Assembly (NCBI RefSeq): GCF_001457775.1
Contig: NZ_CYSG01000003.1
Coordinates: 124,001 to 188,000, forward strand
Length of the DNA stretch: 64,000 nucleotides
Origin: Phaeobacter sp. CECT 5382
GTDB taxonomy: Bacteria; Pseudomonadota; Alphaproteobacteria; Rhodobacterales; Rhodobacteraceae
Reading direction: 5' to 3'
The notes under the pieces were generated by a model, which was not told the DNA's origin, searched no databases, and saw nothing but the letters and a program-made list of their open reading frames with translations. Position numbers and translations under genes: made by a program. Shown here in pieces: positions 15,307-16,852 of this stretch. Position 1 is the stretch's first letter. Every line of letters starts with the position of its first letter.

Positions 15307-16539
15307 TCACTCCGCGGCTTGCGCTGCGGGCGCCAGACGTGCCGCAAGGGTTTCACAATACCAGTCAGAAAACTGCGCCACGCCGCTTTCCTGAATGGGG
15401 GAATAGGGGCCGGGGGCATAGGCTGGCGAAAGAATGCCCTGCTGATTGTCCTCGACCACGCGGCGATCTTCGTCATTGGTGGCCATCCAGACCTCGGTCA
15501 GGCGGCTGACATCATAATCGCGCCCCTCGACCGCATCTTTGTGCACCAGCCATTTTGTGCTCACCTCGGTCTCGGTCGCACTGATCGGAGTGACGCGAAA
15601 CACCAGCGCGTGATCCGGCAGAAAGTGGTTCCAAGTGGTCGGGTAGTGGAATTTCAGCAGGGTGCCCGCATCGTCGAAGGGCACCCGCCCCAGCCAGCGG
15701 GCTACGGCGGGTTTGCCGTCCATCGTGTAGCTCTTTGCGCCCTCCTTCAGCGGCATCCGGGCCACACGATACTGGCCATCCGCGCTCAGATGAAATTCCG
15801 AGGGCAGCCCCGCCGCCTGACAACGGTCGAAATGCGCCTGCAGATGAGGCGGCGTCACGCCACCTTCACCGATGCCGGTGACGCTGGGATCTTCTGGGAA
15901 CGACCGGCACAGCGCCGGATGGTTTCCACCGCAATGATAGCATTCGCGGTTATTTTCCCAGACCAGTTTCCAGTTGCCCTTCTCGATGATGGTGCTTTCA
16001 AAAGCGATCCTGGCATTGCCCAGATCGTGCGGCTCCAGATAGGGGCGCAACTGATCGGCAAAGACGTCAAAATCAGGAGCCTCATCTGCCAGACAGATAT
16101 AGACCAGTCCGGCAACTTCTCGGCAGTGCACGGGTTTTAACCCATGCTGGCTGGGATCGAACTCCGGCCCCATGTCGCGCGCCCACAAAAGCGATCCGTC
16201 CAGCTCATAGGTCCACTGGTGGTAGGGGCAGACCAGTTTGGGATTATTGCCCTTTTTCGATTTACACAGCACCGACCCCCGATGGCGGCAACTGTTGTGA
16301 AAGACGCGAATCTGGCCGTCGCTGCCACGCACCAGGATCACACCGTAGGCCCCAACCTGATGGGTGACATAGCTGCCGGGCTTTTCCAGTTCGCAGGCGG
16401 GAATGGCAAACAGCCAATCGCGATAATGGATCATCTCAAGATCCGCCTGAAACACATCCGGGTCGACATAAAACCCCTGTTCCAGAGAATACCCCGACCG
16501 GCGTCGCGTCAGCATTTCGTTGATTTTGCTCTTGATCAT
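15307..16539 (-). CDS. gbcA: Rieske oxygenase, glycine betaine demethylase
   Basis: Oxidative N-demethylation of glycine betaine to dimethylglycine with release of formaldehyde (known for GbcA; the closely related stachydrine demethylases are an alternative). 410 residues. The Rieske cluster ligands are Cys84-x-His86 and Cys104-x2-His107. Mononuclear iron ligands lie in [14 protein letters not shown] (His202, His207). The tail [16 protein letters not shown] and the following TNDEDRR are very close to GbcA as I remember it. The start was chosen at [11 protein letters not shown] cobalamin riboswitch lies 130 bases upstream on the same strand, which is unusual. Confidence 0.87.
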
Positions 16540-16668
16540 TCGACTGGCTCTCACACCGCATCTGAGCGGCTTGGCTGGAGCAGATGACAAAAGGACGCCG
16601 GCAGGTCGCGCCGATGGAGGACAGGCAACCCGTTTGCTGCGCCCCGACCGCCACCCGCGGTTTGACAT

Positions 16669-16852
16669 AGAGGCAAGGCTGGTTTCCGGACTTTCAAAGG
16701 GAGGTCAATGACCGGATGCAGCGCCTTCCCGAGGGTCCTCACCCCAGTGGCAATGCTGCGCCCTTACCCGATGTTACCGTTGCGGGGGCAGTGCCGGTCT
16801 CTCACCGGCTTCCCAATTCTCCACCCCTTGAGGTGGCACCTTGCTTGGCCCT
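16669..16852 (-). ncRNA. Cobalamin (AdoCbl) riboswitch
   Basis: Read on the minus strand, the conserved parts of the cobalamin riboswitch class appear in order: GGTGCCACC near 16839, GGGAAGCCGGTGA, the strongly conserved CTGCCCCCGCAACGGTAA (about 16774-16791), GCCACTGGGG (about 16742), CGGGAAGGCGC, and the closing AGTCCGGAAACCAGCC at 16676-16691. The length of about 185 bases is normal. An AT-rich stretch at 16895-16985 is a likely promoter region. The next gene on this strand is gbcA. In the 130 bases between, I see a small CCGC-TCAGAT-GCGG hairpin before the ribosome-binding region but no clear terminator, so the switching mode is undecided. Confidence 0.93.

Follow-up and report, generated by a model that had tools for sequence, protein, structure and literature searches.

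The window, by which we mean the whole stretch of 64,000 nt that was analyzed, contains on the minus strand a two-gene operon for a predicted Rieske quaternary-ammonium N-demethylase that is preceded by a cobalamin riboswitch. The first gene (15307..16539) codes for the oxygenase subunit of 410 aa, which was assigned to group Vb and the Stc2/GbcA family on the basis of Pfam, NCBIfam, and PDB matches and contains the Pfam domains Rieske and Ring_hydroxyl_A. Its stop codon is overlapped by the start of the second gene (14219..15310), which codes for the cognate reductase of 363 aa, of the GbcB or Stc reductase type, with FAD, NAD, and 2Fe-2S domains. Nearly all homologous loci likewise have a reductase gene beside the one for the oxygenase. 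The oxygenase start at position 16539 is supported by the homologs, which begin at or just after residues 2 to 9 of the 410-aa reading. A 453-aa open reading frame starting at position 16668 was rejected as the oxygenase gene, because it begins within the riboswitch aptamer and the homologs start near position 16539. Upstream of the operon lies a gene for an AefR-type TetR regulator (17045..17668, minus strand), which according to a comparison of neighboring genes is kept only within the same genus. It was therefore rejected as a part of the operon and probably stands outside the riboswitch-demethylase system.

The aptamer (RF00174) was located with cmscan in the 5′ leader of the operon (16660..16858, minus strand). 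The match has a score of 107.5 bits, compared to a gathering score of 31.5, and an E value of 5.8e-26, covers model positions 1 to 189 completely, and is the only cobalamin riboswitch in the whole window. This result confirmed the preliminary description, in which all conserved blocks of such a riboswitch had been placed on the minus strand. An alignment of 30 sequences showed that the conserved boxes are all intact. The conserved core, consisting of GGGAA..GGTG, CTGCCCCCGCAA, GCCACTG, and GGAAACCAGCC, is present and the stems covary, with compensatory changes in 16 of the 39 consensus pairs.

The leader between the aptamer and the start codon (16540..16659, minus strand) comprises 120 nt. A gene that might have been missed in this gap was looked for, but none is present. 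By alignment and folding, a P13-type hairpin (ACCGC-GGGTG-GCGGT) was predicted directly 3′ of the aptamer and a CCGC..GCGG hairpin directly 5′ of the Shine-Dalgarno sequence. Two candidates for the expression platform were discarded: an intrinsic terminator at 16614-16598, which is a terminator-like hairpin by pattern but is not conserved, and an anti-P13 switch helix, whose free energy was no better than that of shuffled sequences (mean z of −0.1 for 35 leaders). In Mesorhizobium-type leaders the Shine-Dalgarno sequence was predicted by folding to be almost fully paired (probability of being unpaired, 0.01), which is consistent with translational control in these leaders. Judging from the known sign of such riboswitches, the response is presumably a repression by cobalamin.

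The preliminary description had named the two genes gbcA and gbcB. The order of a Rieske oxygenase gene followed by a reductase gene holds true, with the gap of 120 nt to the riboswitch, but the name gbcA needs correction: on the NCBIfam equivalog model for GbcA (NF058607) the oxygenase reached 492 bits, which is below the cut-off of 670. Stc2 reached 495 bits on the same model, which thus fails to separate Stc2 from GbcA and was discarded as a substrate test. As the window oxygenase is about 68% identical to Stc2, compared to 42 to 45% identity to more distant homologs, and Stc2 does equally well on the GbcA model, the label gbcA is insecure and amounts to a family-level name. The closest solved structure is 3n0q (E value of 4e-228); Stc2 (3vca) matched with an E value of 7e-201. 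On the basis of agreeing identity, 3n0q is taken to be the protein encoded on the megaplasmid of Ruegeria sp. TM1040, where the homologous gene is also preceded by a riboswitch. Matching identity and annotation likewise suggest that the protein encoded on pSymA of Sinorhizobium meliloti is Stc2 (the 3vca chain); its gene, in another strain, is flanked by a LysR gene and the gene of a reductase named Stc4.

The hallmarks of group V Rieske N-demethylases have been defined, and an Asn residue at the position of Tyr203 in CntA marks the Vb subgroup, which comprises glycine betaine and proline betaine demethylases (PMC7948474, PMC10952381). The window oxygenase carries Asn197 at this position. In 14 homologs, with positions matched by eye, the Rieske ligands C84/H86 and C104/H107, the iron ligands H202, H207, and D358 with the bridging E199, the pair C200-x-x-C203, and N197 are invariant. 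Judged by these residues, the oxygenase is, like Stc2, GbcA, and BmoA, a group Vb quaternary-amine N-demethylase, with glycine betaine or proline betaine as candidate substrates.

The family sample comprised 395 genomes, 101 of which contained a homolog at an E value of ≤1e-60. The flanks of about 90 of these homologs were scanned by motif and with Rfam, and the set was enlarged by plasmid records and 80 named genomes. A riboswitch directly before the demethylase gene was found at 38 loci by Rfam and, when the motif scan was included, in 64 of 169 distinct homologs, with its core box mostly about 180 to 280 nt before the demethylase start. The pairing is spread over Rhodobacterales and Hyphomicrobiales, with S. 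meliloti pSymB and Ruegeria sp. TM1040 among the examples, and it is kept in a related genome that was checked following the preliminary description. In the enzyme tree the riboswitch copies fall into three large clades. The first consists of roseobacters, among them the window together with Ruegeria, Shimia, Sulfitobacter, and others; the second is a Rhodobacter/Gemmobacter group; and the third comprises Hyphomicrobiales with Mesorhizobium, Rhizobium, Labrys, Aminobacter, and the S. meliloti pSymB paralog. On the best enzyme tree, the riboswitch must have been gained or lost at least 19 times.

Within the family set, a neighboring gene for a LysR, GbdR-like AraC, or TetR regulator or for an OYE-type or DMGDH-type enzyme was present at 36 of the 53 riboswitch-free loci, but at none of the 33 riboswitch loci (p = 2e-11). 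The riboswitch copies are therefore stand-alone operons, whereas most of the others are parts of regulated catabolic clusters. A plasmid of Phaeobacter gallaeciensis carries both a riboswitch and a LysR gene at the demethylase locus. At three loci (L068, L073, and L105) the riboswitch-demethylase operon adjoins nrdH, nrdI, and nrdE with a cobalamin riboswitch of their own. Class Ib ribonucleotide reductase (nrdHIEF) is an established B12-independent substitute, and these neighborhoods may represent small B12-starvation islands. At two other loci (L126 and L130) split metH genes lie 46 to 88 nt 3′ of the demethylase genes, apparently in the same riboswitch operon, and metH is also close to the demethylase operon in L068 and L069. 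As MetH itself needs B12, its position behind the demethylase genes in L126 and L130 does not fit a pure rule of B12-free substitutes, and the riboswitch response in operons of this type may protect methionine synthesis. In L068 the split metH genes, located at +2.3 to +4.8 kb, have their own riboswitch and are preceded by the gene of a conserved 100-aa protein without a Pfam match.

The genome from which the window was taken (G000, 4.1 Mb) contains five cobalamin riboswitches. The other four precede a small gene with cobW and cobN behind it, cbtA, a cbiM-like gene, and a small uncharacterized gene. The strongest of the five (122 bits; C8:28724-28965, corresponding to L048:6725-6966) precedes the gene of a small Cys-rich protein of about 136 aa without a Pfam match. 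The preliminary description had proposed that MttB/MtgB-family genes be sought in the genome, and in fact four MttB-family proteins are encoded there together with MtgC (232 aa; NCBIfam MtgC_2, 196 bits). A gene for an MtgE-like homocysteine S-methyltransferase lies 2 kb from the MtgC gene, and one of the four MttB proteins is the ortholog (58 to 66% identity) of MttB proteins whose genes adjoin mtgC in other genomes. As in the case of known pairs of isozymes, G000 thus encodes the B12-dependent counterpart (MtgC, MttB) alongside the putative B12-free demethylase. Neither a MetE (PF01717) nor a MetH (PF02965) match was found in G000, and the idea of a MetH-linked counterpart had to be given up for this genome. 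In Ruegeria pomeroyi, MtgBCD was shown to be a cobalamin-dependent betaine demethylase, and this species cannot do without MtgC and MtgD in the synthesis of methionine or in the demethylation of betaine (PMC12478193).

A riboswitch that marks a B12-free replacement for demethylation via MtgC is expected only in genomes in which MtgC occurs. Among 80 family genomes, MtgC was encoded in 30 of 30 with the riboswitch and in 44 of 50 without it (p = 0.08), and the corresponding values for 50 named genomes were 25 of 25 and 6 of 25 (p = 1.2e-8). For the pooled alphaproteobacterial sets, in which a few genomes may be present twice, MtgC was found in 55 of 55 genomes with the riboswitch and in 50 of 75 without it (Fisher test, p = 1.5e-7). 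In Mesorhizobium qingshengii, one of the 55, MtgC was seen only in pieces located at the ends of contigs. MttB behaved in the same way as MtgC. Within the Hyphomicrobiales, MtgC occurred in 13 of 13 genomes with the riboswitch, but in only 1 of 12 without it. For Rhizobium and close kin, three species with the riboswitch possess MtgC and MttB and seven riboswitch-free relatives possess neither, although B12 proteins of the size of MetH are present in these seven. Phylogenetically independent pairs were concordant in three to five cases and discordant in none, numbers that are too few for significance alone. The presence of MetH did not track the riboswitch in the genomes of this test (p = 0.48), and MetH, which is lacking in G000, was therefore rejected as the B12-dependent counterpart. 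As 50 genomes have MtgC without the riboswitch, the latter is not obligatory at the demethylase gene.

The riboswitch, the gene order, their conservation, and the co-occurrence with MtgC and MttB form the observations from which our explanation starts. We consider it likely that low cobalamin turns on a B12-free, O2-dependent demethylase that replaces demethylation of the MttB/MtgC type. When adenosylcobalamin is plentiful, the class-I cobalamin riboswitch would shut the operon, whose product would be a Rieske O2-dependent N-demethylase of carboxylated quaternary amines, i.e., glycine betaine and/or proline betaine. Under these B12-replete conditions the methyl groups would be taken off by MttB-family (MtgB-like) methyltransferases together with MtgC, the corrinoid protein that would be common to demethylation and methionine synthesis. 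At low cobalamin the switch would open and the Rieske enzyme would demethylate without B12, so that the scarce MtgC-cobalamin could be spared for methionine synthesis. A competition of the two reactions for MtgC, and hence a physiological trade-off, is implied by this scheme. That both demethylases act on the same substrate is suggested by the findings on MtgBCD (PMC12478193) and by the gene context. The demethylase would be a further B12-independent substitute under a B12 riboswitch, beside MetE and NrdAB/NrdHIEF. The preliminary description had already proposed a B12-free, O2-dependent betaine demethylase that is held off while a corrinoid route operates, and the comparative data, above all the presence of MtgC in 55 of 55 riboswitch genomes, support this part well; its restriction to a glycine betaine-specific GbcA does not agree with the equal match to Stc2. 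A point that counts against our explanation is that G000 lacks a B12-independent methionine synthase and therefore could not synthesize methionine without cobalamin anyway. For the wider scheme, in which the cobalamin level selects between corrinoid methyl transfer and Rieske oxygenation of betaines, betaine catabolism at scarce B12 spares MtgC, and some genomes add MetH to the same operon, we regard the arguments for and against as evenly balanced.

Protection of methionine synthesis could also be the main purpose of the switch: at low cobalamin, betaine flux would be taken off MtgC, leaving MtgC, or a co-induced MetH, for homocysteine methylation. The role of MtgC in both reactions (PMC12478193), the riboswitch-demethylase-metH operons in L126 and L130, the nearby metH in L068 and L069, and the lack of any other methionine synthase match in G000 argue for this possibility, but the linkage to metH is confined to a few genomes. 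We regard it as quite conceivable, though somewhat doubtful, and it is a refinement of the proposed replacement of MttB/MtgC-type demethylation rather than its opposite. Another reading keeps the same riboswitch logic but replaces glycine betaine as the substrate with proline betaine (stachydrine) or hydroxyproline betaine, the counterpart being an MtpB-like MttB protein. Besides the high identity to Stc2 and the equal scores on the GbcA model, it could draw on the position of Stc2 and HpbB1-type proteins in a nearby clade devoid of the riboswitch, but the riboswitch clades stand apart from it and lack its LysR, OYE, and hpbD neighbors. A further point in its favor comes from contig C15 of G000 (L051:326-7494), where an MttB-family gene clusters with genes for an OYE-family enzyme, a P5C-reductase-like protein, and a TetR regulator that is 50 to 57% identical to the TetR adjoining riboswitch-free Rieske demethylase-OYE clusters; the corrinoid enzyme may thus stand where other genomes place the Rieske enzyme. 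Taken together, we view this substrate as a tentative alternative, possible but rather doubtful.

Two further explanations appear much less probable. The operon might feed B12 synthesis by converting betaine to glycine for 5-aminolevulinate and to one-carbon units for the corrin methyl groups at low cobalamin. Cobalamin riboswitches typically control synthesis genes, and others in G000 precede the cobN operon, cbtA, and the cbiM-like gene, but the demethylase operon is not close to cob genes. Moreover, the riboswitch tracks MtgC and MttB rather than B12 use, as seen for the Rhizobium relatives that have MetH-sized proteins and lack both MtgC and the riboswitch, which makes this explanation unlikely. 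Still more improbable is a relic or an accident deriving from a neighboring cob or btu gene, despite the fact that the riboswitch is degenerate or absent in the close relatives L061, L064, L071, and L082. An aptamer that is intact and shows compensatory changes in distant orders, the constant spacing, and the strict co-occurrence with MtgC speak against it, and on the strength of this conservation a chance or relic riboswitch was dismissed.

The riboswitches of metE and nrdAB/nrdHIEF belong to the same aptamer family and likewise control a B12-free enzyme for which the genome encodes a B12-dependent partner, but the target here is a catabolic O2-dependent demethylase and the counterpart an MttB/MtgC methyltransferase. 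GbcAB, the glycine betaine monooxygenase of Pseudomonas and Chromohalobacter, shares the group Vb family and the two-gene layout, and differs in that the model score of the window oxygenase stays below the GbcA cut-off. The stachydrine demethylase Stc2 of S. meliloti pSymA (PDB 3vca, 4qup) resembles the window oxygenase in sequence and in the adjoining reductase gene, but its locus lacks a riboswitch and carries a LysR regulator. Rodionov et al. (J Biol Chem, 2003) reportedly described an alphaproteobacterial gene pair, "ardX-frdX," for an aromatic-ring dioxygenase and a ferredoxin that is regulated by a B12 element. This pair may be the riboswitch-demethylase operon, although it is not known to have been assigned a function or linked to betaine demethylation, and the earlier supposition that the pairing is undescribed has become doubtful. 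Our search of the open literature yielded no description of the pairing; what appears to be new is the functional link to MtgC and MttB, along with the pattern of co-occurrence. With the MtgBCDE betaine demethylase/split methionine synthase of R. pomeroyi and Phaeobacter, G000 has in common genes for MtgC, an MtgE-like protein, and MttB-family proteins. In the study of this system, GbcAB is regarded as a system apart, and a riboswitch is not considered, the word occurring only in the reference list (PMC12478193).

Both as osmolytes and as sources of carbon, betaines are of major importance in the sea and the rhizosphere, and the B12 dependence of the MtgBCD route was shown only in 2025. If our explanation is correct, B12 supply would decide on the betaine route and its products (methyl-folate or formaldehyde) in alphaproteobacteria, and a catabolic enzyme would join the short list of riboswitch-controlled B12-independent substitutes. 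The clean co-occurrence of MtgC and riboswitch makes the idea testable in strains that are easy to work with, such as Ruegeria sp. TM1040 and S. meliloti.

At four loci (L088, L183, L161, and L064) an MttB-family gene was found a few kb from the Rieske demethylase gene, so that both kinds of demethylase are physically linked. In L144, the model of the pyrrolysine insertion element (RF02510) matches at 6008-6107 within an MttB-like gene that lies close to a distant Rieske homolog, and the gene has one in-frame TGA in a genome of the same genus (G341).
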